Source of the DNA: Caldilineaceae bacterium
GTDB taxonomy: Bacteria > Chloroflexota > Anaerolineae > Caldilineales > Caldilineaceae
Direction: 5' to 3'
Assembly (NCBI GenBank): GCA_026989655.1
Contig: JALSIX010000150.1
Coordinates: 1 to 36,171, forward strand
DNA length: 36,171 bases
Shown: positions 2,503 through 27,812 of the stretch, piece by piece
Layout of the letters: every line of letters begins with the position of its first letter
How positions within the stretch are numbered: the first letter of the stretch is position 1
Notes under the pieces: model-generated
Told to the model about the DNA's origin: nothing
Databases searched by the model: none
Seen by the model: only the letters and a program-made list of their open reading frames with translations
Made by a program: the position numbers and the translations under genes

Positions 2503-4707
2503 TCATTTGCCCTGTACCCAGGGAAGATAGCCCCGGTAAGCCGGAGCAGGAGTGGGTGGAGTGGTAGGCCATGGCGTAGGGGAGGGAGTGGCCAGGGCCT
2601 CGGGAGTGGGCGTGGGGGTCGCCATAGGGGTGGGGGTAGGCGGCACCGGCCGGCAGGCCCACACCGCCACATCGTCCACGTAGCGCCACAGATGGCTGCT
2701 CCGGCCGTCGTTGTACACGTTCAGATAGAGGACCACTGTCCGCCCTCGGTAGGCCGTGAGATCGTACTCCAACACACGCCACCGCTCCGTCCCACGGGCC
2801 GGATCCCGCCCCAGGGTGGCCAGGTACCCGTACCCTGCGTCCAGCAACAGGACCTCCCGGTAGTCCACCCCATCGCCCAAGCCGCCATCCCACACGGCCA
2901 GGGCCAGGCGAACGGTCTCCACGTCCTCGGGGAGGGCCACTGGCTGGAAGGCCGAGGAGTGGGCCAGACGGTTGTCCCCGGCCACGGGGATCCCCAGGCG
3001 CAGGGCTCGAGTGCCCGTGTGGACCACAGGGCCGGCCACGATGGCCGCGGGGTAGGGCGTGTTGCCGAAACGCCAGACCGGCTCCGCCAGCTCCTCGAAC
3101 CCGCCGTTCACCACCCGGTTCTCGCACCCCGGCAGCGAGCCCGGCGTGGGGGTAGGGGACGGCGGGGCGGGCGTCGCAGGGGGCGTGGGGGTCGGGCTGT
3201 CCGAGGACGGCTGGAGCCCGGCCAGGTCGGCCAGGGCGGCCAGGGCCATCTGCGCGATACGGGCGGTGTAGTCCAGGTCCAGCGGGTCCACCCGATCCCC
3301 GCGGGTGTGGTAGTAGGGGTTGCGATCCCGGGGCCGTGCGTCCGTGAAGAAGTTCTCGATGACCAACACCGCGGGGTAGTTGTAGTCCCAGAAGGCGGAG
3401 TGGTCCGAGAAACGGCTGGCGGTGGTGTCCTTCCGCTCGAACACCAGGCCCAGGCCATAGCGCTCCGCGGCGGCCATCAGCGCGGAGCCCAGCTCGTTGG
3501 AAAGAGGGCCGGTGCCCGTGTGGAGCTCCACCACCCGGTCCCGGTCGCCGTCGAAGCCGATCATGTCCAGGTCGATGTACCCCTGCACCTGTTCCCCGGC
3601 CAGGCTCAGCTCTCGGGCATAGCGTCTGGAACCCCACTGCCCCTGCTCTTCCCCGGAGAAGAAGACAAAGCGAACGGTCTCGGCCAGGCGCTGTCCCTTC
3701 AGAAGCTGGAGGAGCACCAGGGTGGCGGCCACCCCGGTCCCGTTGTCGTCGGCACCGGGCGCGGCGGTGTAGGGGACCTCCGAGTTGGTGTCGAAGTGGC
3801 CGCCCACCAGCCATATCCGCTCCGGGTACTGGGTACCGGGCAGGTCCACCACCAGGTTGCGGCCGCTGAAGTCGCCGTACACCCAGGGCACGTAGACCGG
3901 CTCCAGGCCCATCTTCTGGATGGCCGTGTAGAGGTAACGCTCTGCGTCCCGGATGCGGGGCGAGAGGGTGTAGCGGGTGGTCAGGGTCACCGAGCCGCCG
4001 GGGAGGGACGCGGGCTCCTGACCGCTCAGTACCTGGAGCCAGGGGCGCAGCGTCTCCGGGCTGATCCGGCCCAGGAGACCCGCCACCTGGGGATCGGGCT
4101 CGGCTCGAAGCTGGGGGCGAGGTGGATATCCGGCTCCCTCCGGTGCCGGGGCCAGGGTCCAGAGGGGCAGGGGCAGAGGATCCACCAGGGAGATGGCCGC
4201 GCCCTGCCGGAGCATCTCGGCCACGAAGCCGGACTCCCCGGCCCGGTCCACGGCCACCAGGGCCCACGTCCCGATGGTGTGGAGGGAAGCCCAGGTGGGG
4301 CCCACGGCCGGGGAAGACGTCAGACAGGCCTGGGAACAGGTGGCCCGGTCCACCAGGTAGAAGACCTTCCCCTGGGTCTCCCGGGCCAACACCTGGATCT
4401 GGATCCCAGGAGCTGCCAGGCCGGGAAGGTCCTGGGGCCTGGCACTGGCCAACGCCCGATCCCCGGGCAACCGAGCATGGACCCGCAGGGAGGTCTGCAC
4501 GGGCGCGGGCAGCCGGGACAGGCCCTGGATCCACAGGAGCCAGGGGGCATATTCCGCCGGGTCCGAGGCCTGGGCCAAGGCCCCGGGGGGTGAGGAGACC
4601 GGAGCCAGGGCCGAGCCGACCCACCAGGCCAGGCCCCATATCAGCAGGCCGAGAACGGCCCATGCCCGGCCTGGCCGGGCTCCTCTGCCACTGCCAGGGT
4701 GCTCCAT
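2503..4707 (-). CDS. Secreted M28-family zinc aminopeptidase with Pro-Thr linkers
   Basis: This 734-residue protein starts at the ATG at 4707, preceded by an AAAAGGA ribosome binding site; the reading frame stays open further upstream. It has an N-terminal signal or anchor helix (about residues 17-36), an N-terminal region of about 250 residues, and an M28 peptidase core. Both zinc sites are complete: GGHFD (His304), ADDNGTG (Asp321), SGEE (Glu353 as base, Glu354 as ligand), DLDMIG (Asp381) and YYHTRGD (His467). A Pro-Thr linker leads to a C-terminal beta-sandwich module beginning CENRVVNGGFEE. A second Pro-Thr tract then ends in YRGYLPWVQGK. It probably removes N-terminal residues from peptides outside the cell. 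It lies 20 bp downstream of an amidotransferase-like hydrolase and is probably co-transcribed with it. Confidence 0.92.
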   Translation of the reverse strand: MEHPGSGRGARPGRAWAVLGLLIWGLAWWVGSALAPVSSPPGALAQASDPAEYAPWLLWIQGLSRLPAPVQTSLRVHARLPGDRALASARPQDLPGLAAPGIQIQVLARETQGKVFYLVDRATCSQACLTSSPAVGPTWASLHTIGTWALVAVDRAGESGFVAEMLRQGAAISLVDPLPLPLWTLAPAPEGAGYPPRPQLRAEPDPQVAGLLGRISPETLRPWLQVLSGQEPASLPGGSVTLTTRYTLSPRIRDAERYLYTAIQKMGLEPVYVPWVYGDFSGRNLVVDLPGTQYPERIWLVGGHFDTNSEVPYTAAPGADDNGTGVAATLVLLQLLKGQRLAETVRFVFFSGEEQGQWGSRRYARELSLAGEQVQGYIDLDMIGFDGDRDRVVELHTGTGPLSNELGSALMAAAERYGLGLVFERKDTTASRFSDHSAFWDYNYPAVLVIENFFTDARPRDRNPYYHTRGDRVDPLDLDYTARIAQMALAALADLAGLQPSSDSPTPTPPATPAPPSPTPTPGSLPGCENRVVNGGFEELAEPVWRFGNTPYPAAIVAGPVVHTGTRALRLGIPVAGDNRLAHSSAFQPVALPEDVETVRLALAVWDGGLGDGVDYREVLLLDAGYGYLATLGRDPARGTERWRVLEYDLTAYRGRTVVLYLNVYNDGRSSHLWRYVDDVAVWACRPVPPTPTPMATPTPTPEALATPSPTPWPTTPPTPAPAYRGYLPWVQGK

Positions 4708-5834: not shown

Positions 5835-8800
5835 TTACCGCCGCACCGCAGGGAGGAAGAGCCGATGGGGGGCCCCGTCCCCGGGGAGGTCCAGCCCGAA
5901 CTGGGGAGGGCCCGGGGGCAGCCCATAGCCCGGGGCCGGGACCCGATCCACCGGGATGAAGGGCTCCAGCCGGAGAGGTTTGGTGGTGTCCAGGTTGCTG
6001 TGGCCCCCAGGGCCGAGGCGAGGCCCTCCAGGGCGCACCTCCACCACCCACTGGTAGACCGTGTCGTCGAAGCCCACCATCTCCACCTGGTACTCCCCGT
6101 CCAGGGGGGCCACCACCCCCAGCTCGTCCACATCCTCCCGCAGGTTGGTGACCCAGGCTCCCCGAACCGCGTGGTCCGGCGGCCAGATGTAGATGTCCGG
6201 ATCGCCCTGCTGGGGGATCACGAACGCGGAGAGGTGATCTCCCTGGCGCAGCCGGTAGCGAAAGAGGCGCACCTCGTCCCGGGCCAACGCGTCGCGGCCC
6301 GGCGGCGCGTAGTTGATCCCGGCCAGGGCCGATCCCCTGGAGATGTTGCCCTGGGCGTCCACTGCCCAGGCCCGCAGATAGCGGCGCCCCGGCGTGGGCA
6401 GCAACGTCCATGGGTAGGCCATGCCCGGAGTGTAGGTCAACCACTCGGACCACTGGACCGGCACCCAGCGATCGCTGGCCCGGACGTACTCGTACTCCAC
6501 AAAGGTCACCGCCTGGACCTGGGAGCCCACGTCCGCGGCCGCCACGGTCAGGGAGACGGGGCGCCGGGTGGTGGTCTCCTGGCCGCCGTCGATCCGCAGG
6601 GCCAGCACCTGGGGCGCCTGGAAGTCCGGTTGGGTCGGCAGCACCGTCACGGTGCGGAAGATCTGGTTGTTCTGCTCGTCGCTCTCTGGGATCCGGCCAT
6701 CGGGATCGATCCGGGCGAAGAGGGTGTAGACACCGGGCGCGGGAGGAGTCCACACTACCGGCACCGTGGCATCCGCGCCGCCGGGCTCCAGCCGAGGGAC
6801 CACCGTCCGGCCGATGAAGGTGTCCAGGCCCGGCTCGCCGTAGTAGAAGGCCACCGGCACGTCCAGGAGCAGCCGGTCGCCCCCCGGACGATGGACCCGA
6901 AGCCCGATCTGGGCCGTCTGACCGACCCGCAGCACCCCGGGTTCGGTCCACAGCTCGTAGGGCCGGGCCAACAGGTCGTCGTCCCCGGGGCCGTAGGCCG
7001 TGTAGCCCTCGGCCAGGGTGGCCTGGCTGCCGTCGGGGTTGCGCACGGTCACCGGCCGGGCCCCGGGCTCCAGGAAGCCACCCGGCAGGCGGGCCTGGAG
7101 ATGGCCGGGGCCGATGTAAACGGTCTCCACCGGGCGTTCGTCCACCCACACCTGGCTCTCGGGCTCGAAGTTCACGCCGTACACGTTCAAGGTCACCGGC
7201 AGATGGGCCTGGCCAAAGCCCGGCCGCACCTGGGTCACGGCCAGGCCCTGGGTGGTCACCCGATAGGCCCCGGTGCGGACGGCCACCACGCCATCGGGGT
7301 TGCGCACCACCAGGTCGTAGCGCTGGGGCGGGAGGAAGGCCGGCACCGTCACCTGGATGGTGGATGGATCCACCACCTGGGCATCTGGCAGGGGATAGGG
7401 CCCCAGGGCCACGGTGGCCCCGGGCTGAAACCCCTGGCCCTCCAGGGTGATACGCCGGGAACGGCCGTTGTCCCCCTGGTCCGGCCGCACCCGGTGGATC
7501 TGGGGATCCGCGGGCCCGACCCGGTCCACCATCTCCACAGTGACCCGGGCCACGGCCATCCCTCCCTGGCCGTCGGAGACCGTGTAGCTGAAGACGTCCG
7601 TGCCCAGGAAGCCCGGCGGCATCATGTAGCGCAGGGTGTTGTCCGAATTGATGCTCACCGCGCCGTACTGGCCCTGGGAGACGGCCACCACCCGGAGGGG
7701 ATCCCGGTCCACGTCGTAGTCGTTGGCGGCCACGGGCAGGTTCGCCATGCCCAGGGCCACGATGCGGTAGCGGTCGTCTCGGGCCGTGGGAGGGTCGTTC
7801 ACCGGGGTCACCGTGACCTGGAAGGTCTGGGTGGCGGTCCACTGGCCGTCGCTCACCTCCACCGTGATGGCCGCGGTGCCGTTCCGGTTCGGCGCGGACT
7901 TCAGGTGCAGGGTCCGCTGGAAGCCCTCTCCGGTGAACCAGAGGTTCTCGTCCGGGACCACGCCGATCTCCCCCGAGGTGGCCCGTAGACGGAGGCGGTC
8001 TCCGGGCGTGTCGATGTCCGTGATCTCCAAGGGCACCTGGAGGACCAGGTCCTCCGGGACCGTCTGGTCGGGGATGGGGGCGAGCACGGGCCCATCGTTC
8101 ACCGGCCCCACGTGGAGGGTGAAGGTCTCCTGGGTGGTCAGGCGGCCATCGCTGGCCACCACCGTCACCTGGACCGAGCCGATCCGGTCCGGCTGGGGGG
8201 TCAGCTCCAGGGTCCGCTCCCGGCCGCTTCCCTGCAGGCGAATGCCCGAGAGGGGCAGCAGCGCTGGGTCGGAGGAGCGGGCCGAGAGGACCAGGTCCTC
8301 CGCCGGGTCGTCCACGTCCTCCACGGTGAAGGGGACGGTCAGACGGCCGTCCTCGGCCACCTGCTGGTCGGGAATGGGATGGATGACCGGGGCATCGTTC
8401 ACCGGCAACACGGTGAGGGTGAAGTGGGTGCTGGCGTTGAGGAGGCCGTCGCTCACGGTCACCGTGATGGTGGTGGTGCCGTACATGTCCGGGGCCGGGG
8501 CGACGATCAGCTCTCGATTGGCTCCCTGGCCGCCGAAACGGATCTGGGTCAGGGGCACCAGGGCCGTGTCCGCGGCCGTGGCGTACAGGCTCAACTGGTC
8601 CAGCTCGGTGTCGATGTCGTCCACCAGGATGGGAATGGGCCCGATGGGGGTATCCTCCTGGGTGGTCTGGGGTTCCAGGGTCTCGATGGAAGGCCCGTCG
8701 TTCACCGGGGTCACCTGGACGGGCACCTCTCGGGAGCCGGAGATCCGGCCGTCGAAGACCGTCAGGGTGATGGTGAAGGTGCCGTAGCGGTCCGGCAGGG

Positions 8801-11795
8801 GGCGCAGCACCAGGGTGCGCTCCAGCCCTTGTCCCTCCAGCCGGATCTCCGTGTCCGGGAGGATGTCCGGGTTCCCGCTGCGGGCTTGGAGGACCAGCCG
8901 CTGTTCCTCTGTGTCGGGATCGCCGATGGTGACCGCGAAGCGCTCCTCGGAGTCCTCGGGCAGGGAGAGGAGCCCGGGGTCCTCCACGTAGGGGCGGCCG
9001 TTGATGGTCAGGGTGAACTCCTCGTAGCCCGTGGCATCGCCGTCGCTGGCGGTCAGGCGGATGGTGACCACGCCGAACTGGCCGGGCGCGGGGGTGATGG
9101 TCACCGTGCGTCGATCGCCCTGGCCCGTCACCTGGATGTTCTCGTCGGGCACGATGGACGGATCCGACGAGGTGCCCCACAGGGAGATCACGCTCAGGTC
9201 GCTGTCCTCATCGGTCACGGTCACCTCCATGGTGAGGGAGGTGTCCTGGTCCATCAGCCGATCCCGGATGGCCCCGATGTCCGGGGGATCGTTCTCGGCC
9301 ACCACGGTCACCCGGAAGGTGACCCCGGCGCGCAGGAGGCCGTCGTCCACCCAGAGGGTGACCGTGCTGACGCCCGAGGCCGCGGGCGCGGGAGTGATGG
9401 TCAGGGTGCGGTTCTGGCCGTTGCCGCCCACCCGGAGGCCGGTGAGGGGGATCACCCCGGGATCGGTGGACTCGAACTCAAAGCGCAGCCCGCTCAGGGG
9501 CGTATCGGGGTCGTCCACCGTGAAGTCCACCGTGTGGACCGCGTCCTCCACCAGGGTCTGGTCCGGAATGGGGGAGAGGATGGGATAGGCGTTGGTGGTG
9601 ATCTCGAAGGCGGTGGTGGCCGTGTCCACGCCGTCGTCCGCGGTCAGGGTGATGGTGGTGGTGCCGTAGGCCCCGGCTGTGGGCTCCACCACCAGGGACC
9701 ACTGGTTGCCCTCCCGCAGCAGGGCCAGGTTCTCGTTGGGCACCAGGTCTGGGTTGGAGGAGCTCGCGCTCACCTGGATGTCCTGGGGAGCCGAGTCCAC
9801 GTCGTCCACGGTGAAGGGCACGGTGATGGTCTGGCCCTCCGCGATGCTCTGGTTGAAGATCCGGGAGAAGGTCGGCGGGTCGTTCACCGGGTTCACCGTG
9901 AGGAAGAAGGTGTCGGAGACGGCCAGGTCGCCGTCGTCCACGGTCACGGTGACCAGCACGGTGCCGAAGAGATCCGGCCCCGGGGTCAGGGTCATGCGGG
10001 TGCCGTTGTAGGCCAGGCTGAAGCGGATGTCCTGGGAAGGGAGCAGGAGATCGTCCGCGCTGACCGCGCGGTAGGTGAGCTGGGCCGGGGTCAACTCCTC
10101 GTCGTAGGCCATGAAGAGGACCGTCAGGGGAGTGTCCTCGTCCGTGGTCTGGTCGGGGATGTCCTCCATCACCGGCGGGTCGTTCACAGACTCCACCGTG
10201 AGGACGAAGGAGTAGCTGCCCACGTCCGTGCCGTCATCGGCCCAGAGGGTGATGACGGCCTTGCCGTAGCGGTTGGCCCGGGGCGTTACCGTCAGGTAGC
10301 GGACCAGGCCCTGGCCGCTCAACTGGATGTTCTCCAGGGGCACCAGGCTCAGGTTGTCCGAGGACGCGGTGACGGTGATGGCCTCGCTGGGGGACTCCAG
10401 ATCCTGGACCACGAAGGGCAGCGGGCCCAGGGGCACGTCCTCCTGGGTGGTCTGGTCGCCGAAGGGGACGATGGTGGGGGGGTCGTTCACCGGGGTCACC
10501 GTGACCTGGAAGGAGTCGGTGTCGATATTGGTGCCGTCGCTGACCGTCACCAGGATGATGGTGGAGCCGGTCTCGTTGGCCGCGGGGGTGACGGTGATCT
10601 GGAAGCCCGTGTCCAGGGCCTGGATCTGGATGTTGCCGTTGGGCACCAGGGTGGCGTTGGTGCTGGTGGCGGTGACGGACATCTCCTGGGGCGAGGTGTC
10701 CACGTCGGTCACCGCGGCGGTGATCACCAGGGGCGTGTCCTCCGGCGTCACCTGGGAGGGGATGTTCGCCAGGGAGGGCGGATCGTCCACCGCGACCACC
10801 GTGAGCTTGAAGGTCCGGCTGGCCGTGAGTTCGCCGTCGCTCACCCGGACGGTGATGTTCGTGGTCCCGAACCGGTCTGGGGCCGGGGTGATGGTGAGCT
10901 GCCGGGTGTTGCCCGTGCCGCCCAGGATGAGGTTGCCGTTGGGCACCAGCGCGGTGTCGGAGGACTCCGCGGTGTAGAAGAGGTTGTCGCTGGGGGTCTC
11001 CGGGTCCGAGACCTGGAAGGTGACCACCAGGGCAGTGTCCTCCAGGGTCTGCTGGTCGGGGATGAACTCCATCACCGGCGGCTGGTTCGCGGGGGTGACG
11101 GTGAGGTTGAAGCTCGCGGTGGCCGTGCCGTTGCCGTCGCTGACGGTGACCACCACCTGCGCGCTGCCGGTGACGCCCGGGGCCGGGGTGATGGTGAGGG
11201 TCCGGCTGCCCCCGCTGCCCCCAAAGACAAAGCTCCCGGGGGGCAGCAACAGGGTGTCGTTGCTGGTGGCGGTCAGGGTCAAGTTGTCCAGGGGGGTGTC
11301 CACATCCGACAGGGTGATGGGGATGGGGCTGGTGGCGGTCCCCTCCACGGTCTCCTGGTTGGGGATGGGCTGGATCACCGGTGGATCGTCCACCGGGTTC
11401 ACGGTCACCACGAAGGAGGTCTGGGCCGTCTCTGTGCCGTCGCTCACCACCAGGGTGACAATGGCCTGGCCCGAGCGGTCGGCCGCGGGGGTGAGGGTCA
11501 CCTCCCGGTCGGTGCCCGAGCCGCCGAAGACCACGTTGGCGAGGGGGATCAGGGTCTCGTTGCTGGACAGAGCAAAGAGGGTGAGCTGGTCCGCGGGGGT
11601 CTCGGCGTCGGCGATGGTGAAGGCCAAGGGCCCCAGGGTGACGTCCTCGTCCACCGTCTGGTTGGAGATGCTGCTGATGGTCGGCGGGGTGTTGAGGGGT
11701 GTGGAGAGGCCTCCCCGGGCCTGGCCGGTGGCCCAGGCCAGGACCCCCAACAGGAGACACACCACACCCAGCCGTCGCGCGCTTCTTCGCCCCAT
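5835..11795 (-). CDS. Giant exported protein with tandem cadherin/Ig-like repeats, IPT/TIG, CARDB-like and PPC-like domains
   Basis: This 1986-residue protein starts at the ATG at 11795 and has a signal peptide ending near residue 27. Residues 37 to about 1333 hold 13 tandem repeats of about 100 residues. Their consensus is D-P-P-x-I-x-x-I-P-D-Q-T-x-x-E-D-T near the start and T-x-T-P-A-x-x-x-x-G and V-S-D-G later, as in bacterial Tandem-95/cadherin-like repeats. A diverged VCBS/Big_9-like domain follows (SYTVSDGQGGMA), then two IPT/TIG domains (RNPDGVVA, RNPDGSQAT). Next come a CARDB-like domain (IDPDGRIPESDEQNN) and a region like the bacterial pre-peptidase C-terminal domain. The end is HRLFLPAVRR. 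A surface adhesin or scaffold role is inferred. It is the last of four genes for exported proteins, 20 bp after the preceding stop. Confidence 0.9.
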   Translation of the reverse strand: MGRRSARRLGVVCLLLGVLAWATGQARGGLSTPLNTPPTISSISNQTVDEDVTLGPLAFTIADAETPADQLTLFALSSNETLIPLANVVFGGSGTDREVTLTPAADRSGQAIVTLVVSDGTETAQTSFVVTVNPVDDPPVIQPIPNQETVEGTATSPIPITLSDVDTPLDNLTLTATSNDTLLLPPGSFVFGGSGGSRTLTITPAPGVTGSAQVVVTVSDGNGTATASFNLTVTPANQPPVMEFIPDQQTLEDTALVVTFQVSDPETPSDNLFYTAESSDTALVPNGNLILGGTGNTRQLTITPAPDRFGTTNITVRVSDGELTASRTFKLTVVAVDDPPSLANIPSQVTPEDTPLVITAAVTDVDTSPQEMSVTATSTNATLVPNGNIQIQALDTGFQITVTPAANETGSTIILVTVSDGTNIDTDSFQVTVTPVNDPPTIVPFGDQTTQEDVPLGPLPFVVQDLESPSEAITVTASSDNLSLVPLENIQLSGQGLVRYLTVTPRANRYGKAVITLWADDGTDVGSYSFVLTVESVNDPPVMEDIPDQTTDEDTPLTVLFMAYDEELTPAQLTYRAVSADDLLLPSQDIRFSLAYNGTRMTLTPGPDLFGTVLVTVTVDDGDLAVSDTFFLTVNPVNDPPTFSRIFNQSIAEGQTITVPFTVDDVDSAPQDIQVSASSSNPDLVPNENLALLREGNQWSLVVEPTAGAYGTTTITLTADDGVDTATTAFEITTNAYPILSPIPDQTLVEDAVHTVDFTVDDPDTPLSGLRFEFESTDPGVIPLTGLRVGGNGQNRTLTITPAPAASGVSTVTLWVDDGLLRAGVTFRVTVVAENDPPDIGAIRDRLMDQDTSLTMEVTVTDEDSDLSVISLWGTSSDPSIVPDENIQVTGQGDRRTVTITPAPGQFGVVTIRLTASDGDATGYEEFTLTINGRPYVEDPGLLSLPEDSEERFAVTIGDPDTEEQRLVLQARSGNPDILPDTEIRLEGQGLERTLVLRPLPDRYGTFTITLTVFDGRISGSREVPVQVTPVNDGPSIETLEPQTTQEDTPIGPIPILVDDIDTELDQLSLYATAADTALVPLTQIRFGGQGANRELIVAPAPDMYGTTTITVTVSDGLLNASTHFTLTVLPVNDAPVIHPIPDQQVAEDGRLTVPFTVEDVDDPAEDLVLSARSSDPALLPLSGIRLQGSGRERTLELTPQPDRIGSVQVTVVASDGRLTTQETFTLHVGPVNDGPVLAPIPDQTVPEDLVLQVPLEITDIDTPGDRLRLRATSGEIGVVPDENLWFTGEGFQRTLHLKSAPNRNGTAAITVEVSDGQWTATQTFQVTVTPVNDPPTARDDRYRIVALGMANLPVAANDYDVDRDPLRVVAVSQGQYGAVSINSDNTLRYMMPPGFLGTDVFSYTVSDGQGGMAVARVTVEMVDRVGPADPQIHRVRPDQGDNGRSRRITLEGQGFQPGATVALGPYPLPDAQVVDPSTIQVTVPAFLPPQRYDLVVRNPDGVVAVRTGAYRVTTQGLAVTQVRPGFGQAHLPVTLNVYGVNFEPESQVWVDERPVETVYIGPGHLQARLPGGFLEPGARPVTVRNPDGSQATLAEGYTAYGPGDDDLLARPYELWTEPGVLRVGQTAQIGLRVHRPGGDRLLLDVPVAFYYGEPGLDTFIGRTVVPRLEPGGADATVPVVWTPPAPGVYTLFARIDPDGRIPESDEQNNQIFRTVTVLPTQPDFQAPQVLALRIDGGQETTTRRPVSLTVAAADVGSQVQAVTFVEYEYVRASDRWVPVQWSEWLTYTPGMAYPWTLLPTPGRRYLRAWAVDAQGNISRGSALAGINYAPPGRDALARDEVRLFRYRLRQGDHLSAFVIPQQGDPDIYIWPPDHAVRGAWVTNLREDVDELGVVAPLDGEYQVEMVGFDDTVYQWVVEVRPGGPRLGPGGHSNLDTTKPLRLEPFIPVDRVPAPGYGLPPGPPQFGLDLPGDGAPHRLFLPAVRR
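7797..11687 (-). repeat. Thirteen tandem about-300-bp coding repeats (cadherin/Ig-like)
   Basis: The region encodes 13 consecutive modules averaging about 100 residues inside the giant exported protein. Each begins near P-P-x-I-x-x-I-P-D-Q and ends with a V-T-P-V-N-D type linker. The copies are clearly diverged, so they look like old duplications rather than a recent expansion. Modules 9 and 10 (starting DPPDIGAIRDR and YVEDPGLLS) fit the consensus least well. Confidence 0.85.
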
Positions 11796-11815
11796 GGATC
11801 GTGCCCTCGTCTGCG

Positions 11816-14197
11816 TCAGGGTTGTGGATCTGGGCTCACCAGGTCGAAGGCATACTGGACCTGGTAGGGGGCCTCGGGATCCTCCACCCGGTAGGCCATG
11901 GCCGCGTGGAGCAAGAGGCCCGGCACCTGGGCCGCGTACCACAGCTCCACCTGGCCCGGATCGGCCACCTGGCGGGTGCCCGGGCCGTCGTCCCACAACA
12001 CGATGGGGTCCCGGTTCACCAGGCGCCAGTAGGAGCGGACGCGGCCGGCCACCAGGCCCTGGAGCGGCCCCTCCAGCCGGAAGACCTGGCCGTCCACGCT
12101 GACCGCCCGGAAGCCGGTCAGGTCCAACCCGTAGGGGAGCAGCCAGGGGTAGCCCCATTCCCGGGGGCCATCACCGGCCAGGGAAGTGGCCACCAACCGG
12201 CCATCGGCCACATCGTAGTCCTCGGTCCATTCCTGGCCGGGCCAGTTGCGGGGGTTCGGGTCGAACCACTGGCGCCCCACGCTCCGGGCCACGGTTCCGG
12301 CCACGGCCTGGGTGAAGGTCTGCTCCCACCGGTAGCCGAGGGGCTCGATGGCCCCGTTGGCACGCTGGATGCGCCCGGTGCCCTCCCAGCGCAGGCGGAG
12401 CCCCACGTAAAGGGGGTAGATCTGGACCGACCGAGGCACGCTCCACCCGCCCACGTTGATGCCGGCCCAGGCCCGCACCCGGTAGTAGTAGGTTCCCGGC
12501 GCCTGGTCCGCGATCTCCCACTGGGCCCCGGGGCCCTGGTAGACCAGTCGGGCGTCCTGGAAGTCCGGAGTGGTGGCCTCCTGGAGCTGGAACTCCACCC
12601 AGGCGTTCTCGGGGATCGAGGCGGTCCACGCCAGGGTGTAGCGGTTGTCCAGGTCCGCGTTGTGGACCGAGGCCAGCTCGGGCGTGGGCAGGGAGATGCC
12701 CCGCACCACCAAGGGCAACACCGCCCGCACGGGGAAGGTGGGCGTGGGGGTCGGCGTGGGGGTGGCGGTCCGGGTGGGGGTGGGGGTGGGCGTCCAGGTG
12801 GCCGTGGGCGTGGCCGTGGGGGTCGCGGTGGGGGTGGGCGCGGTGCGGTCCCGGTAGAAGCCGATCACCACGTCCGGTCCGCTGGTGCTGGCCAGGAGCC
12901 CGGTGGCCCGGGACAGGAAGGCCACGTAGCGGCCGTCCCCGGAGAGGACCGGCCGGAACGCGTGGGCCTGGCCCTGGGAGCCGTCGTTGCCCACAGAGAC
13001 CCGCTCCGTCTGGTTCGTCTGACGGTCCCGCACGAAGACATCGGCCACCTGGTTCGTGTCGCCGGGCACCAGGTTGTCGGCATCCGACTGGAAGGCCACG
13101 AACCGACCATCCCCGGAGAGGCTGGGTCGGGCCGGGTCGAGCTGGGGGTTCACCAGGGAGGGGTTGCCCTGGGTCCCGTCGCTGGCCAGGGAAACCCGCT
13201 CCACCCATCCCGTCTCCCGCTCCACCACGAAGACGTCCCAGGTCTGGTTGGTGTCGCCCGCCACCAGGTTGGTGGCGAAGGAACGGAAGCCGATCACCCG
13301 ACCGTCCGCGGAGATGGCCGCCAGGTGGGAGGGGCCGTCCGCCTCGGTCCCATCGACGGCCACGGAGATCCGGACCGTGGTGCCGGCCACGGTGTCGTGG
13401 AGGAAGATGTCCGAGGTGTTGTTCCGGTCGTCGGCCACCAGGTTCGTGGCCAGGGACTCGAAGACCACGTAGCGGCCATCGCCGCTGATGGCGGGCAGGG
13501 TGGCGTCCCGGTCCGCCTGCTCGCCCTCGGAGCTCAGGGAGATCCGGCGGGTCTGGCCTGTGTGCCGGTCGTGGAGGAAGATGTCCCGGCTCTGGTTGGT
13601 ATCGCCCACCACCAGGTTGGACGCGTCCGACGCGAAGACCACGTAGCGGCCGTCCCCGGAGAGGGCCGGGTAGAAGGAGTCGCCGTTGGCCTGGCCGCCC
13701 CCCGAGGCCACGGAGACCCGCTCGGTGAGGCCGGTGACCAGATCCCGCACGAAGATGTCCTGCCGGCCGTTGGTGTCCCCCAGCACCAGGTTGTCGGCCT
13801 GGGACGCGAAGGCCACGTAGCGGCCGTCCCCGGAGAGCGCGGGATCGAAGGAGGGGCCGTTGGCCTCCTGGCCGTCGTTGGAGAGGGAGGCCCGGTTGAT
13901 CTGCCCGGTGACCGGGTTGTAGACGAAGACATCCGAGACCCCATTCCCATCGCCCACCACCAGGTCCGAGGCCTGGGACGCGAAGGCAAAGGTCCGGCCA
14001 TCCGCGGCCATGGCCAGGGAGAGGAGATCGCCGTTGCCCCGGGCAAAGCTGTAGGTGACCCCGGTGACCGCAGCCGGGCGGGCCACCGGGTCCGCGGCCC
14101 GGGTCAGGCCCAGGCCGACCAGCACACCGAGGCCCAGGAGCACCAGGAACAGCCCGGGGCGGCTCCCCCTCGTCCGCGTGCATCCGCTCACGTCCAC
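11816..14197 (-). CDS. Exported seven-repeat beta-propeller protein with Pro-Thr linker and C-terminal beta-rich domain
   Basis: This is a 793-residue protein if the GTG at 14197 is used. The GTG at 14191 is better spaced from the AGGGGG site and may be the true start (791 residues). A signal or anchor helix occupies about residues 15-35. Seven TolB/PD40-like repeats follow, each with (L/I)SGDGRYVAFxSxAxNLV, or AADGRTFAF in the first copy. Most then carry GDTNxxxDxFV. This fits a seven-bladed propeller. A Pro-Thr tract and the motif RAVLPLVVRG come next, then a fibronectin-like segment (YYYRVRAWAGINVGGWS) and a C-terminal domain of about 190 residues that I do not recognise. No catalytic residues are evident. 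It lies 6-12 bp after the preceding gene and 20 bp before the next, so it is part of the same operon. Confidence 0.85.
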   Translation of the reverse strand: MDVSGCTRTRGSRPGLFLVLLGLGVLVGLGLTRAADPVARPAAVTGVTYSFARGNGDLLSLAMAADGRTFAFASQASDLVVGDGNGVSDVFVYNPVTGQINRASLSNDGQEANGPSFDPALSGDGRYVAFASQADNLVLGDTNGRQDIFVRDLVTGLTERVSVASGGGQANGDSFYPALSGDGRYVVFASDASNLVVGDTNQSRDIFLHDRHTGQTRRISLSSEGEQADRDATLPAISGDGRYVVFESLATNLVADDRNNTSDIFLHDTVAGTTVRISVAVDGTEADGPSHLAAISADGRVIGFRSFATNLVAGDTNQTWDVFVVERETGWVERVSLASDGTQGNPSLVNPQLDPARPSLSGDGRFVAFQSDADNLVPGDTNQVADVFVRDRQTNQTERVSVGNDGSQGQAHAFRPVLSGDGRYVAFLSRATGLLASTSGPDVVIGFYRDRTAPTPTATPTATPTATWTPTPTPTRTATPTPTPTPTFPVRAVLPLVVRGISLPTPELASVHNADLDNRYTLAWTASIPENAWVEFQLQEATTPDFQDARLVYQGPGAQWEIADQAPGTYYYRVRAWAGINVGGWSVPRSVQIYPLYVGLRLRWEGTGRIQRANGAIEPLGYRWEQTFTQAVAGTVARSVGRQWFDPNPRNWPGQEWTEDYDVADGRLVATSLAGDGPREWGYPWLLPYGLDLTGFRAVSVDGQVFRLEGPLQGLVAGRVRSYWRLVNRDPIVLWDDGPGTRQVADPGQVELWYAAQVPGLLLHAAMAYRVEDPEAPYQVQYAFDLVSPDPQP
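12738..12842 (-). repeat. Low-complexity Pro-Thr linker coding tract
   Basis: A run of alternating Pro and Thr codons in the propeller gene encodes an extended, probably glycosylated linker. The plus strand here is a near-perfect series of GTGGGGGT/GGGCGT units, so the DNA is strongly G-rich on one strand. Shorter tracts of the same kind occur in the M28 peptidase gene and in the gene at the right edge. Confidence 0.85.
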
Positions 14198-14203
14198 CGC
14201 CCC

Positions 14204-15118
14204 CTATCCACAGTCGGCCATGGGCACCCCGTCCACCCAGATCTCCACATCGTCGAAGTAGATGTTGGAGTTGAAGGGAGCGGGACTCTCCGCCTGGATC
14301 AGCACCAGGATCTGGCCGCTCTCGCCTGCGACCACCCGGTTCTCCAGCACACTCCAGCGGCCCCGGGTGTATCCGTTCACGTAGCGGGCCTCGGGGCCGT
14401 GGGCATCCGGCTTCAGCCCCAGGGAGACCCAGTCGTTCACCACCCGTTCACCGATGCGGAGGGCCGGATGGTTGAACATCAGATATCGGACCCGGACCTC
14501 CACCGACGCGCCGGGGGGCACCTGGAAGACCGGGCTGATGAGGCCGGCCGCGTAGGGCTGCCCGCCCGCGATCTTGAAGGAGAACTCGCCCTGGCGATCC
14601 CCGGGCCCCACGTTGCGCTCCATGTCGAAGCGGACGTTCTCCGCGCGGTAGAGGCCGCCGTCGTCCACCGCGAAGGTGCCCCAGCGGCCATAGCTGGCAT
14701 ACCAGATCTGGCCGTTCCAGCGGGCCGGGTCGTTGAAATCCAGGCACGCCGCGGCCGTGGGGAACAGGGTGTTCCCATGGGCCAGGCCATCCGCCTGGGG
14801 CAGGACCCCTGGGCCCTCCACCATGGGCTGGCCTGGCGGCACAGAGAGCTCCCCGGCGCTCTCCAGCTCGCCGGCCAACTGGTTGTAGACCCGGGTGTCC
14901 GGAAAGAGATCGCCCGGAGCCGGGGCCGGATCGTCGGGCACCGGGGCCACCGCATGGATGCCGGATGGCGGCAGAGGCCGACCGGCCGCGGCCGCGGCAA
15001 AGGCCGGCCACGCCAGGGCCAGGACCAACAGGGCCCGAGCAGCCCATCGACCAGGACACCACCCCAGGCCCCGGGCCCGCAGCCGTCGGATGCTCTGCGC
15101 AGAAAGCACGCCTTCCAT
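14204..15118 (-). CDS. Exported beta-sandwich (carbohydrate-binding-module-like) protein of unknown function
   Basis: This 304-residue protein starts at the ATG at 15118, with GGGGGAA placed just upstream. A signal peptide with hydrophobic core ALLVLALAWPAF ends near an AAAAAG segment. About 90 residues of Pro-rich sequence follow. From CLDFNDPARW onward the sequence looks like a jelly-roll module, with ISPVFQVPPGASVEVRVRY, the aromatic-rich WYASYGRWGTF and the closing strand IYFDDVEIWVDG, which is typical of CBM-like sandwiches. No enzyme motif is visible. It sits 53 bp after the lipoprotein gene and 6 bp before the propeller gene, as the second gene of the four-gene exported set. Binding of glycan or cell-wall polymer is a guess from fold type only. 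Confidence 0.8.
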   Translation of the reverse strand: MEGVLSAQSIRRLRARGLGWCPGRWAARALLVLALAWPAFAAAAAGRPLPPSGIHAVAPVPDDPAPAPGDLFPDTRVYNQLAGELESAGELSVPPGQPMVEGPGVLPQADGLAHGNTLFPTAAACLDFNDPARWNGQIWYASYGRWGTFAVDDGGLYRAENVRFDMERNVGPGDRQGEFSFKIAGGQPYAAGLISPVFQVPPGASVEVRVRYLMFNHPALRIGERVVNDWVSLGLKPDAHGPEARYVNGYTRGRWSVLENRVVAGESGQILVLIQAESPAPFNSNIYFDDVEIWVDGVPMADCG

Positions 15119-15171
15119 AGTTCCCCCGCTGTCGAGCGATCTGCCGTCCACAGGCCCCCATGGCCCGTGGT

Positions 15172-15981
15172 CTACCGGGTCTCCTCCTCCACAAAGCTGA
15201 GCCGGGCGTTGGTGGCCTCCAGCACCTGCTCGTAGGTCTCCATGTCGCCGAAGTAGGCTCGCTGGTACTCCGTTCCCTGGAAGACACCGGTGAAGACCCA
15301 CCGCTTCAGGTACGACATGGTGACCAGCATCCCGGTGCGGACGTCGTAGCAGACCTCGCCGTCGTACAGGGTGGTCCAGCCGTCCCGCTCCTGGACCTCG
15401 GCCGTGCGGGGGCCGGTACACCAGACCGCCACAGCCCGGCCGTCGTCCAGCTCCACCGTCCGCTCGGGAAGCCCCGCCCGGGCGCCGGCCCAGAAGATGA
15501 AGAGTCGATCCTCCTGGCTGGGATAGCGCTCTTCGCCGGTGAAGCGGTCCACCTGGGTCAACCAACTGGTCCGCTTGCCACAGCCCTCGTTCCACCGCAC
15601 CCGACGGTCCAGCTCCAGCCACCGCTCGTCCAGGAGCTTGCGCACACTGACGAACGCGGTGCCCTCGCACCGGTCGAAGGTACAGAGGTCCGAGGAGCAC
15701 TCCCAGGCAATGGACCAGCGGGCCTGGAGGTCCAGGTCCAATACCGGCGCGGTGCCCAGCTCCAGCCCAGGATCCTGGACCGGTGCCGGCGTGGCCTGGG
15801 GCTCGGCCTCGGCGCTCCCGGCCACCGCGTAGACCTGATAGTCGTAGAAGACGTTCCGAGCCGAGGGCTCGGGCCGCTCCCGCCCACACCCGGCCAGGGC
15901 CACCAGCACGAGCCCCAACAGGCCCCACAGCCAGATCCGGGAACAGGGCACCTGGAACGGCGGACACCGTCGATGGACCAT
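15172..15981 (-). CDS. Lipoprotein of unknown function, first gene of the exported-protein operon
   Basis: This 269-residue protein starts at the ATG at 15981, preceded by a strong GAGGAGG site 8 bases away. A hydrophobic stretch ends in the lipobox LAGC with Cys32, so the mature protein is predicted to be lipid-anchored outside the cytoplasmic membrane. The mature part has eight more cysteines. Three lie close together in CSSDLCTFDRC and others in NEGCGKR, VWCTG and EVCYD, suggesting disulfides. The C-terminal half has short beta-strand-like pieces such as GWTTLYDGEVCYDVRTGMLV. I do not recognise the family. It leads the four-gene minus-strand unit, 53 bp before the beta-sandwich gene. No convincing promoter was found in the 108 bp upstream. 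Confidence 0.85.
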   Translation of the reverse strand: MVHRRCPPFQVPCSRIWLWGLLGLVLVALAGCGRERPEPSARNVFYDYQVYAVAGSAEAEPQATPAPVQDPGLELGTAPVLDLDLQARWSIAWECSSDLCTFDRCEGTAFVSVRKLLDERWLELDRRVRWNEGCGKRTSWLTQVDRFTGEERYPSQEDRLFIFWAGARAGLPERTVELDDGRAVAVWCTGPRTAEVQERDGWTTLYDGEVCYDVRTGMLVTMSYLKRWVFTGVFQGTEYQRAYFGDMETYEQVLEATNARLSFVEEETR

Positions 15982-16088
15982 CTCTGCCGCCTCCTCGACT
16001 CCATGCTAGGGGTCCCCCCGCTCCCGTTCCAGCCTGCCCCTGTATGGGAGGCATAAAGCCGCCGTAACCAACCGTACCTTCAGGGGAT

Positions 16089-16117
16089 TTGGCAGTTCCC
16101 CCGTCTGTTGATAAGAT
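16089..16117 (+). promoter_or_regulatory. sigma-70-type promoter of the metallophosphoesterase gene
   Basis: Plus strand: -35 TTGGCA (16089-16094), 17-bp spacer, -10 TAAGAT (16112-16117). Transcription would begin near 16124. This rules out the upstream TTG at 16108 as a start codon. Confidence 0.7.
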
Positions 16118-16224
16118 CGACCCTCGACGCGTGGGCGGACATGGGCCATGTAGCCAGGGCTCACCCATACCATATCGGCCGTTCCACGGGGAAAGCACAC
16201 TGGAAGAGGGGATCTTTGGGGAAA

Positions 16225-17394
16225 ATGGACGAGGGGACCGAGAACACTGGCCTGCCCGAGCGGCCCTTCGCCGGCCCTCGACTCCTGGGAGCCACCCTGG
16301 CCGGCGCAGGGCTCCTGGCCGGGCTGGGCACCGCCCTGGCCGGCTATGCCCTCCTATGGGAGCCCTTCCGAGTTCGCCTGGAGCGGATCACCATCCCCCT
16401 GGACCGGGTGGAGCTCCCGCCCCAGGGGCTCCGCATCCTCCACCTGTCGGACTTCCACTTCCACGGCATGGACCGACGGGAACGGCCCAAGATCCGGCAG
16501 GTCCTCCGCCTGATCCAGGGCATGGAGTACGACCTACTGGTCCACACCGGGGACTTCCTGGAACGGGATCCAGGGCTGGAGAACGTGCTGACCCTGCTGC
16601 GGGCACTGCCCCGACCCCGCCTGGGGGCCTTCGGGGTCCTGGGCAACCACGACTACGTCAGCTACGCGCTGCGCACCACCCTCCGCTTCACCTGGCAGAG
16701 CTTCCGGGCCCGGGAGGCCCAGGAGGGGCGCCTGCCCTGGGGTCCCGGCCTCTCCGGCCGGCTCCGCATGCTGCTCCGCTTCAGCCAGTACATCCTCCAC
16801 CGACACCTGGACTCCGCGCCCGCGGGCGCCAACGACACCGTCCGCCTCCGCCGGGAGCTGGAGCGGCATGGCCTGGCCATCCTCCACAACCAAGCCCTGC
16901 GCCTGGACCAGCTCCATCCCCAGGCGCCCCGACTGTGGCTGGCCGGCGTGGACGACCACCGCTACGGCCGCCCAGACCTCCCCAGAGCCCTCCAGCCCGT
17001 CCCGCCGGGGGATCCGGTGGCCCTCCTCAGCCACAACCCGGACGTGTTGGACGACCCCCACATGGACCGGGTCCAGCTCCTGCTGGCGGGCCATACCCAC
17101 GGCGGCCAGATCCGCCTGCCCTTCCTGGAACGGGGCCAACACGTGGCCGATCCCCTGGCCCGCCGCCACGCCGCGGGCTACTTCCGCCATCGAGGCGTCC
17201 ACGTCTACATCAACCAGGGCCTGGGCGAGGGAATCCCCCTGCGCCTGGGCGCGCCGCCCACCGTCTCCCTGATCACCCTGGTGGGGACAGGGGACCCCCG
17301 GGCGGCGACGCTCCGGAGGAGGCCGGAGGCGGTCAGGAGGAACGGCCGTCTCCGGGGGGCATGGAAAGCCGTTGGTCTCCCGCGTACACGTTGA
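16225..17394 (+). CDS. Membrane-anchored metallophosphoesterase (YaeI-like)
   Basis: This 389-residue protein is read from the ATG at 16225, preceded by TTGGGGAAA. An in-frame ATG at 16141 would add 28 residues with no membrane or domain sequence. A hydrophobic helix at about residues 19-45 anchors it. The calcineurin-like motifs are all present: LSDFHFHG (Asp76, His78), HTGDF (Asp110), GNHDY (Asn141, His142), LLSHNPD (His270) and AGHTHGG (His290, His292). Relatives include YaeI, described as a phosphodiesterase acting on UDP-2,3-diacylglucosamine-like lipids, but the substrate here is unknown. Between GNHD and the next strand there is an insert of about 60 residues rich in Arg and aromatic residues. 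The 3' end overlaps fdhD tail to tail by 62 bp. Confidence 0.9.
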   Translation: MDEGTENTGLPERPFAGPRLLGATLAGAGLLAGLGTALAGYALLWEPFRVRLERITIPLDRVELPPQGLRILHLSDFHFHGMDRRERPKIRQVLRLIQGMEYDLLVHTGDFLERDPGLENVLTLLRALPRPRLGAFGVLGNHDYVSYALRTTLRFTWQSFRAREAQEGRLPWGPGLSGRLRMLLRFSQYILHRHLDSAPAGANDTVRLRRELERHGLAILHNQALRLDQLHPQAPRLWLAGVDDHRYGRPDLPRALQPVPPGDPVALLSHNPDVLDDPHMDRVQLLLAGHTHGGQIRLPFLERGQHVADPLARRHAAGYFRHRGVHVYINQGLGEGIPLRLGAPPTVSLITLVGTGDPRAATLRRRPEAVRRNGRLRGAWKAVGLPRTR

Positions 17395-21961: not shown

Positions 21962-24013
<2,052 letters not shown>

Positions 24014-24130: not shown

Positions 24131-26377
24131 ATGGTCTGGCTGCAACGCACCCTGGCCGTCGTCGTCTCCCTGCTCGCGGTCCTGGTCGCGGCCTTCCTCT
24201 CCCTGGGCTTCCTCCCGGTCGCGGAGGATCCCCCCATGGACCCGCGCCAGGGTGGAGCCGGGGCCCGCAGCGTGGAGCCCAGCTGGAGCGGCCTCCAACG
24301 GGCATTCCCGCCCATGGACAGCCCCCCCGACACCCCCCAGACCCCCGAGGCCGTGGAGCTGGGCCGTCTCCTCTTCTTCGATCCCGTCCTCTCGGGCGAC
24401 GACCGGATGAGCTGTGCCTCCTGTCACCATCCGGACCTGGGCTTCGCGGACGGGCAGGCCCATCCCGTGGGCGTGGAAGGCGAGATCCTCCCCCGCCACA
24501 CCCCCACCCTGTGGAACGTGGGCTGGGCCCGGCCCCTCTTCTGGGACGGCCGCGCGGAGACCCTGGAGGACCAGGCCAGCACCCCCCTCACCCACCCCCA
24601 GGAGATGGCCGCCGATCCGGAACAGATCCAGGCGGACCTCCGGGCCATCCCCGAGTACGTGGCCCGCTTCCAGAAGGCCTTCCCCAACGACCCCCAGCCG
24701 GTCACCTTCCAGAACGTGCGTCGGGCCCTGGCCGCGTTCCAGCGCACCCTGATCTCGGACGACAGCCCCTTCGACCGCTTCGCGGCCGGGGACGTGAACG
24801 CGCTGACCCCGGCCCAGCGCCGAGGCCTGAACCTCTTCCGCAGTGCGGCCACCCGCTGTTTCGAGTGCCATACACCGCCCCTGTTCACCAACAACACCTT
24901 CCGGGTCATCGGCGTGCCCGAGGAACCCGGCGTCCAGGATCCCGGTCGGGCCGGTGTGGCCCCGGACGCGCCGGCCGGCGCCTTCCGGGTGCCCACCCTG
25001 CGCAACGTGGCCCTCACCGGGCCCTACATGCACAACGGCGCCTTCGAGACCCTGGAGGAGGTGATCGATTTCTACGCGCAGGGAGGCGGCCGGGCCTTCG
25101 GCCAGGAGAACGTGGACCGTTTCGTCCTGGGCTTCGAACTGAGCGAGCAGGAGCGAGCCGACCTGGTGGCCTTCCTCCTGGCCCTGACGGACGAGTCCCA
25201 GATGCCCCCCATCCCCCAGGAGGTGCCCTCTGGCCTGCCGGTGGTGCCCCGGAAGGAGAACCCCGCCCGGGAGCGGGTGGCCCAGGTCAACGTGGCCAGC
25301 AGCCGGGCTACCCAGGAGGAGCGCCCACCCCGGGTCTGGCGGGTGGAGCCCGGCCAACGCATCCAGGAGGTGGTGGACCAGGCCCGGCCGGGAGACACCA
25401 TCGAGATCGCCTACGGGGTCTACCGCCAGAACGTGGTGGTGGACGTGAGCGGCCTGACCCTGCGGGGCATCCCCAACGAGGCCGGCCAGTGGCCCATCCT
25501 GGACGGGGAGAACCGCCTGGTGGACGGCATCGTCTCCAGCGGGAACGACTTCACCGTGGAACGGCTCCACCTGCGCAACTATCAGGGCAACGGCATCCTG
25601 GTGGAAGGGGTTCGGGACGTGGTCCTGCGGGACCTGCGGGTGGAGAACACCGGTGTCTACGGGGTCTATCCGGTCCACAGCAGCGGGGTCCTCATCGAGC
25701 GGGTAGAGGCCACGGGCATCAAGGACGCCGGCATCTACGTGGGCCAGTCCGAGGACATCGTGATCCGGGGATCGGTGGCCTACAGCAACGTCATCGGCAT
25801 CGAGGTGGAGAACAGCGTCAACGCGGAGGTCTACGACAACGAGACCTACCACAACACCGTGGGCATCTTCTTCGACCTGTTGCCCAACCTGACCAGCAAG
25901 GTCGCGGTCGGGGGGAAGATCTACAACAACCGGGTGGAGAACAACAACCATCCCAACTTCGCGGACCCGGACATGATCGCCGCCCGGATCCCCTCCGGCA
26001 CCGGGATGCTCCTGTTGGCCGTGGACGAGGTGGAGGTGTACGACAACGTGATCCGGGGCAACAACTCCGCGGGCATCGCCATCTACCGGCTGACCATCGC
26101 CTTCGACCCCGACACCATCGACGTGGCCGACCGGCCGGAGCGGATCTGGATCCACGACAACCTGTTGGAGGGCAACGGCCGGAACCCGGATCCCGCCCTG
26201 GCCGACCTGGGCATCCCCGGCGCGGATATCCTCTGGGACGGGAGCGCGTGGAGCGTGGTGGTGGACCAACCCGGTGTGCGCACCTTCCCCCCGCTGATCC
26301 CGTCCAGCGACTGGCCAGAGTGGATCCGCAAGGCCTACTGGCAGCTCCTGAACTTCGCGGTCCAGCGTCTCATGTGA
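24131..26377 (+). CDS. Fusion of di-heme cytochrome c peroxidase (MauG/CcpA-like) and right-handed parallel beta-helix
   Basis: This 748-residue exported protein starts at the ATG at 24131 (GAGGTG upstream). An N-terminal signal or anchor helix covers residues 7-30. Residues 72-355 form a bacterial di-heme peroxidase: [14 protein letters not shown], heme 1 CASCH (Cys95, Cys98, His99), [11 protein letters not shown], heme 2 CFECH (Cys243, Cys246, His247), [18 protein letters not shown] with Met300 as a likely heme ligand, and [10 protein letters not shown] linker of about 45 residues follows. From about residue 400 come beta-helix coils rich in Asn and Val, such as [20 protein letters not shown] and [20 protein letters not shown], with a PbH1/NosD-like look. 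Such peroxidases normally end after the first part. Whether the helix binds a polysaccharide or alters the heme reaction is unknown. Confidence 0.92.
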
Positions 26378-27745: not shown

Positions 27746-27812
27746 AGAGCCGACGACCTCACCGGACCTCACATCGCGAGAGATGCCCCCGTCCGAAGGG
27801 AAGGAGAGTGCC

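Follow-up and report, generated by a model that had tools for sequence, protein, structure and literature searches.

A four-gene set of exported proteins in a few Caldilineaceae: a possible accessory surface adhesin with a cadherin-like stalk

The locus and its four exported products

The window, i.e. the whole stretch of DNA analysed here (36,171 nucleotides), is the entire contig C150 of a Caldilineaceae genome of 4.09 Mb with a completeness of 99%. It contains four consecutive minus-strand genes, P0001 to P0004 (referred to below as the cassette), whose close spacing had been pointed out in an earlier note and is confirmed by the measured gaps of 53, 6 and 20 bp. The features of the locus are as follows:

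15172..15981, minus strand: P0001, lipoprotein of 269 aa with a six-cysteine all-beta core; lipobox LAGC at aa 29-32
15184..15753, minus strand: P0001 core domain, aa 77-266, six conserved cysteines (alignment and a weak LolA/LppX/LmcA-like model)
14204..15118, minus strand: P0002, secreted protein of 304 aa with a predicted jelly roll at the C-terminus (sequence and model)
14219..14764, minus strand: predicted CBM61/CBM4/CBM16/MAM-like jelly roll of P0002, aa 119-300 (Foldseek and VIA on a low-confidence model)
11816..14197, minus strand: P0003, propeller protein of 793 aa, GTG start (Pfam and reading of the sequence)
12863..14077, minus strand: seven-blade PD40 propeller of P0003, aa 41-445 (PF07676, E 3.3e-23; blades counted by eye)
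12728..12853, minus strand: Pro/Thr-rich (PT) linker of P0003, aa 449-490 (reading of the sequence)
11819..12418, minus strand: C-terminal domain of P0003, aa 594-793, about 200 aa, no known family, nearly confined to P0003 orthologues
5835..11795, minus strand: P0004, giant cadherin-like stalk protein of 1986 aa (Pfam, NCBIfam)
7506..11708, minus strand: P0004 stalk, about 14 tandem-95/cadherin-like repeats of about 100 aa (NF012211; acidic positions resembling calcium ligands)
5838..7505, minus strand: P0004 C-terminal module with TIG, CARDB and the terminal RLFLPAVRR (Pfam, NCBIfam)
5838-5864, minus strand: C-terminal [FY]LPxxxR motif
15982..16224, no strand: region between the P0001 and metallophosphoesterase genes, presumed to hold the cassette promoter
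16225-17394, plus strand: divergent metallophosphoesterase gene, neighbour of the cassette

A codon-model gene caller recovered all four genes, sometimes placing the start later. In a hydropathy scan each of the four proteins begins with a hydrophobic export segment, which in P0004 lies slightly below the cut-off of 1.6 in the window species and above it in the orthologues, and no second membrane segment was found in any of the four window proteins. No enzyme family scored above its cut-off for P0001-P0004 in Pfam or NCBIfam, so the claim that all the products are exported and devoid of a recognisable catalytic site holds as far as these searches extend. Scanning of the four-gene block revealed no sigma-70-like promoter on the minus strand and a single terminator-like site, against 2.9 expected by chance; a minus-strand sigma-70-like site was likewise absent from the scanned intergenic region upstream of P0001.

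P0001 has the signal peptide, lipobox and cysteine of a bacterial lipoprotein, and a consensus lipobox is present in four of the five orthologues, PVAC standing in its place in G020. Neither the protein nor its core of about 190 residues matched any Pfam family, and a sequence-profile search against the PDB returned no meaningful relatives. P0001 relatives were found in 34 of 61 genomes; outside the cassette most of them bear an N-terminal bacterial SH3 domain, which the cassette form lacks. The structure predictions were built from three sequences each, and the AlphaFold model of the P0001 core reached a mean pLDDT of 53. Its matches are mostly to the LolA/LppX/LmcA/RseB fold, with a best Z of 7.4 (LmcA) and no Foldseek E below 1e-3. 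A Z below 8 may reflect a common arrangement, and 7.4 is under the value at which such a likeness says much.

Such caution also applies to P0002, whose C-terminal 180 residues were modelled as a jelly roll with a mean pLDDT of 45. The model has TmCBM61 as its nearest match (Foldseek E 1.5e-5; VIA Z 11.6 with an rmsd of 2.5 across 120 residues), followed by CBM4, CBM16 and MAM domains, and its predicted fold is that of CBM61 and CBM4/16; this agrees with the earlier assignment of P0002 as the carbohydrate-binding-like part. P0002 differs from these families in having no above-cut-off sequence match, no attached enzyme and an additional N-terminal extension. There was no Pfam match, MAM matches being sub-threshold only and limited to 4 of 19 relatives, and no meaningful relative among PDB sequences in a profile search.

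The propeller of P0003 belongs to PD40 (PF07676, 81.5 bits, gathering score 20.9), and its seven blades, noted previously, are readable in the sequence. It lies far below the equivalog cut-off for TolB (TIGR02800, 27.2 bits versus 343), and it differs from PD40/TolB propellers by adding the PT linker, an FN3-like stretch recognised by eye after the linker, and the new C-terminal domain. These three elements, like the TIG/CARDB module of P0004, had not been mentioned in the earlier note. PD40 propellers are common in the class, and P0003-type propellers also occur alone. A profile search against the PDB gave no meaningful relatives of P0003, and its C-terminal domain had no Pfam match. Among 298 genomes of the class, a sample which excluded the other four cassette carriers, this domain was found only in the window species and, as a partial match of 36%, in one genome of another family. 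In the latter copy (L097, G243:C93, 535-1263, plus strand), which lies close to the edge of a contig, the domain is preceded by a YLPLGMR motif. Six of the seven propeller blades (12863-14077, minus strand) contain a D-x-N-x(3)-D loop, which could bind a metal such as calcium.

P0004 was correctly anticipated to be a long cadherin-like repeat stalk: it matches NF012211 with 300 bits (cut-off 90) in 13 stretches, about 14 repeats being readable, and PF17963, PF17892 and PF17803 match as well. ED, DxD/E, DG and NDPP positions recur in nearly all repeats of the directly read alignment and look like the calcium ligands of cadherins, which suggests that the stalk may bind calcium. The length of P0004 ranges from 1984 to 2013 aa in four orthologues, which share 43-48% identity between genera and 71% within genus g6, and their alignment contains no gap of 10 or more residues from the signal peptide to the C-terminal tail. 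That repeats have been neither gained nor lost across genera suggests that the length of the stalk matters.

Distribution, location and history of the cassette

The four genes occur together, in the same order and on the same strand, in four other Caldilineaceae species (G008, G018, G020 and G027), so that five species of four genera carry the cassette, with gaps ranging from -8 to 101 bp; in G008 the contig ends inside P0004. Among the sampled genomes the closest orthologues of P0001, P0002 and P0003 belong to exactly these five carriers, and P0004 orthologues of matching architecture are confined to them. The presence of the cassette in just 5 of 46 family genomes, several of the rest being incomplete, indicates that it is accessory. 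The dN/dS values between G018 and G027 (P0001, 0.14; P0002, 0.16; P0003, 0.24; P0004, 0.16) are evidence of purifying selection on all four genes, and taken with the order kept in four other species and the scarcity of terminator-like sites they make the arrangement more than chance. The proposal that the four genes form a unit is thus upheld by the conserved order and the all-or-none presence. Single, unlinked homologues in related genomes had been named as what would speak against it: the closest homologues are always found together, whereas solitary copies do exist among the more distant relatives of P0001, P0002, the propeller and the C-terminal module of P0004.

In the window, G008, G018 and G020 the metallophosphoesterase gene, located by coordinates at the compared loci, is divergent from the cassette. 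For G027 this layout is inferred across a contig break, both genes being found at contig ends compatible with it. The carriers of genus g6 (G018 and G027) have a transketolase gene directly after P0004; in the non-carriers of that genus (G005, G032 and G034), as in G002, G011, G013 and G016 of other genera, the metallophosphoesterase and transketolase genes are directly divergent. Similarly, in genus g15 the cassette is present in G020 and absent from G014, and the next two genes (coding for a protein of about 200 aa and a NUDIX protein) are the same pair in both. Sister species therefore lack the entire block at the corresponding site, and comparison of empty with filled sites showed that homology resumes about 50 bp past the P0004 stop and, on the other side, near the metallophosphoesterase start. 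The flanking genes (metallophosphoesterase, methyltransferase, transketolase, NUDIX) have no relation to the cassette, and those on one side vary from species to species. That the metallophosphoesterase side is shared speaks for inheritance of the cassette at one site, and the wide spread of the empty arrangement for its gain or repeated loss.

In phylogenetic trees a well-supported branch (97/95 for the P0001 core and 100/99 for P0002) sets the five cassette forms apart, and this single clade for each protein indicates that the cassette was assembled once. The two genes have a longer common history. P0001-like and P0002-like genes are adjacent in 19 of the 21 loci examined around a P0002 relative (the exceptions being G000:C57 and G006:C5), which makes the pair older than the four-gene set, and this constant neighbourhood suggests a joint function. 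In two other families the two genes stand tail to tail. P0001-like genes are the more widespread and also occur without P0002, e.g. in genus g8. With the old pair, P0004-type modules and PD40 propellers all widespread, the cassette can be described as the old pair plus two proteins from common exported families, of which P0003 bears an almost private domain. In many Caldilineaceae the P0001-like/P0002-like pair, with SH3 on the P0001-like protein, is found near trmFO-like, thymidine phosphorylase-like and mltG-like genes (loci L056, L057, L066, L067, L053, L063 and others), and many of these pairs adjoin trmFO-like or further housekeeping genes.

Proposed function and alternative explanations

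The four genes, their export signals and co-inheritance, the kinds of domain in P0003 and P0004 and the constant stalk length form the basis on which we suggest, with moderate confidence, that the cassette encodes an accessory complex acting at the cell surface as a glycan-binding adhesin, the assembly and ligand of which we infer. Since related species have either the whole block of genes or none of it, these genes probably specify one accessory surface attachment structure. We propose that they constitute one operon for a non-enzymatic complex, in which P0001 would be lipidated and stay on the membrane, while P0002, P0003 and P0004 would be secreted via their signal peptides and would remain at the surface through non-covalent contacts. 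P0001 and P0002 would represent the older core pair. P0002 may bind a polysaccharide of the cell's own envelope, of the sheath or of a neighbour, and the P0003 propeller might act as a docking hub joining the parts. P0004, stiffened by calcium, would serve as a stalk that does not vary in length (about 14 repeats, or some 60 nm at full extension) and would keep a distal module out and away from the filament. Adhesion, like the binding of calcium and glycan and the formation of a complex, is thus a putative property of the set. Against the adhesin complex stand the low confidence of the P0001 and P0002 models, the fact that the sequence shows no means by which P0002-P0004 stay at the surface, and the existence elsewhere of solitary homologues of the propeller and of the C-terminal module of P0004, which implies that these can work without the other three proteins.

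The absence of a described system with this set, claimed previously, was borne out in Pfam, NCBIfam, PDB sequences and the literature searched; in particular, searches of the literature on cadherin, propeller and lipoprotein sets in Chloroflexota gave no description of the four genes. The closest parallel to P0004 in design is GhlA, a protein of 6596 aa with 49 DUF11 domains which makes up the polar grappling hooks of Litorilinea aerophila, a filament former of the class Caldilineae (PMC13319060). Like GhlA and GhpA of Aureispira, P0004 is a giant exported protein of Ig-like beta-sandwich repeats, arranged as beads on a string, and may form a long projecting surface structure (PMC13319060). 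However, GhlA has no signal peptide (PMC13319060), whereas P0004 has one, together with about 14 cadherin/tandem-95 repeats, a TIG/CARDB tail and three partner genes. No DUF11 match was found in P0004 at E up to 1 (Pfam), and by that test it is neither a relative of GhlA nor a grappling-hook protein.

The RapA proteins of Rhizobium, also secreted and cadherin-like, are lectins that bind exopolysaccharide with calcium and contribute to the matrix and to cell cohesion (PMC5061743). They differ from the cassette in having one or two Ra/CHDL domains, export by PrsDE and lectin activity within the cadherin-like protein itself (PMC5061743), whereas in the cassette the candidate for glycan binding, the jelly-roll protein P0002, is encoded separately. 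P0004 also resembles the sortase-anchored LPXTG adhesins in forming a long tandem beta-sandwich stalk at the surface, but it lacks their C-terminal membrane segment and basic tail and ends in FLPAVRR. A C-terminal hydrophobic segment is absent from P0002 and P0003 as well, so that none of the three has the sortase-type LPXTG/helix/basic-tail anchor. With neither a lipobox nor a C-terminal anchor their mode of surface retention is not visible in the sequence, and retention would be either non-covalent or due to a signal not yet known.

Another possibility, which we consider unlikely, is that the cassette encodes structural parts of an envelope layer enclosing the multicellular filament (an outer layer or a lattice-like layer of protein) and not an adhesin. 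In L. aerophila an outer layer does enclose the whole filament, along with an S-layer-like layer of protein whose composition is unknown (PMC13319060), and four exported proteins without enzyme domains would suit such a role. However, a main layer would be expected to be near universal, unless species-specific like many S-layers, and a cassette so rare in the family is better explained as an accessory, niche-dependent structure for attachment than as a core envelope layer.

It is quite unlikely that P0001 is a lipid carrier or assembly factor of the LolA/LppX/LprG type which, with P0002, delivers or folds P0003 and P0004. The fold matches of the P0001 core and the existence of the P0001-P0002 pair without P0003 and P0004 would fit this role, but the model has low confidence and its Z is below 8. 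In addition, six conserved cysteines are, to our knowledge, not typical of such carriers, and the SH3 domain of most P0001 relatives suggests wall binding rather than lipid transport. The capture of polysaccharides for feeding, by a system akin to Sus or scaffold systems but without enzymes, appears improbable: a lipoprotein accompanied by binding modules, including the CBM-like predicted fold of P0002, would be expected of it, but the cassette has no transporter, glycoside hydrolase or dockerin, its flanking genes are unrelated and variable on one side, and no SusC/SusD pair or enzymes were found in the locus (Pfam on the four proteins; neighbours read by eye). That the four are independent exported proteins without a common function, as the solitary P0003-type propellers and P0004-type modules might suggest, is very improbable in view of the order kept in five species, the all-or-none presence at one site and the single origin.

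Extending the adhesin reading, one may speculate, with considerable doubt, that the cassette represents a hitherto undescribed type of modular appendage on the surface of filamentous Chloroflexota, in which an ancient P0001-P0002 pair was joined by a propeller carrying a new domain and by a cadherin stalk of fixed length. The whole would be held at the surface with neither a sortase nor a membrane anchor, perhaps aided by the C-terminal FLPxxxR. Members of the Caldilineaceae occur in abundance in activated sludge (PMC9942424), and which proteins make up the outer layers of filaments of this kind is not known (PMC13319060). An all-or-none four-gene surface set, together with pairs of species with or without it at one site, provides a handle on the filament exterior. 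The analysis also names two protein families lacking any model, i.e. the P0001 core and the C-terminal domain of P0003, and recognises the older P0001-P0002 gene pair as widespread in the family.

The C-terminal motif and other features of the window

The end of P0004 conforms to a pattern, a hydrophobic residue followed by [FY]LPxxxR, which is located at the extreme C-terminus of large exported proteins, including P0004 and its paralogues, with no membrane segment behind it (window and loci L106-L112, L114-L116, L125, L130, L147 and L154). It terminates 18 of 508 called genes against 0.2 expected, in a sample enriched for P0004 relatives, and 8 of 550 genes of the window species' own genome against 0.8 expected, this count covering about 0.65 Mb. 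These protein-level counts were preferred to a scan for the DNA pattern, which was discarded as too unspecific, its matches being just somewhat commoner than in a reversed control. The motif might represent an undescribed C-terminal signal; literature searches on C-terminal sorting in Chloroflexi and on the string LPLVLR gave nothing describing the four-gene system. Within P0003 a similar LPL[VIL] motif directly follows the PT linker in all five orthologues (AVLPLVVRG in the window, 12701-12721, minus strand). A variant of the C-terminal motif, YLPWVQGK, ends a protein with a PT-rich tail encoded at 2503-4578 (minus strand).

C-terminal modules of the P0004 type are found widely as unlinked copies, which in some cases stand in tandem. 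The window encodes a second giant exported protein of 2527 aa (27783-35366, plus strand), weakly similar to this module and with an N-terminal region that by eye is subtilisin-like. Further upstream, the gene at 24131-26377 (plus strand) codes for a protein with a CASCHH haem motif, which by eye resembles di-haem cytochrome c peroxidase/MauG, and it is adjoined by a gene for a small cytochrome c-like lipoprotein (23624-24013).
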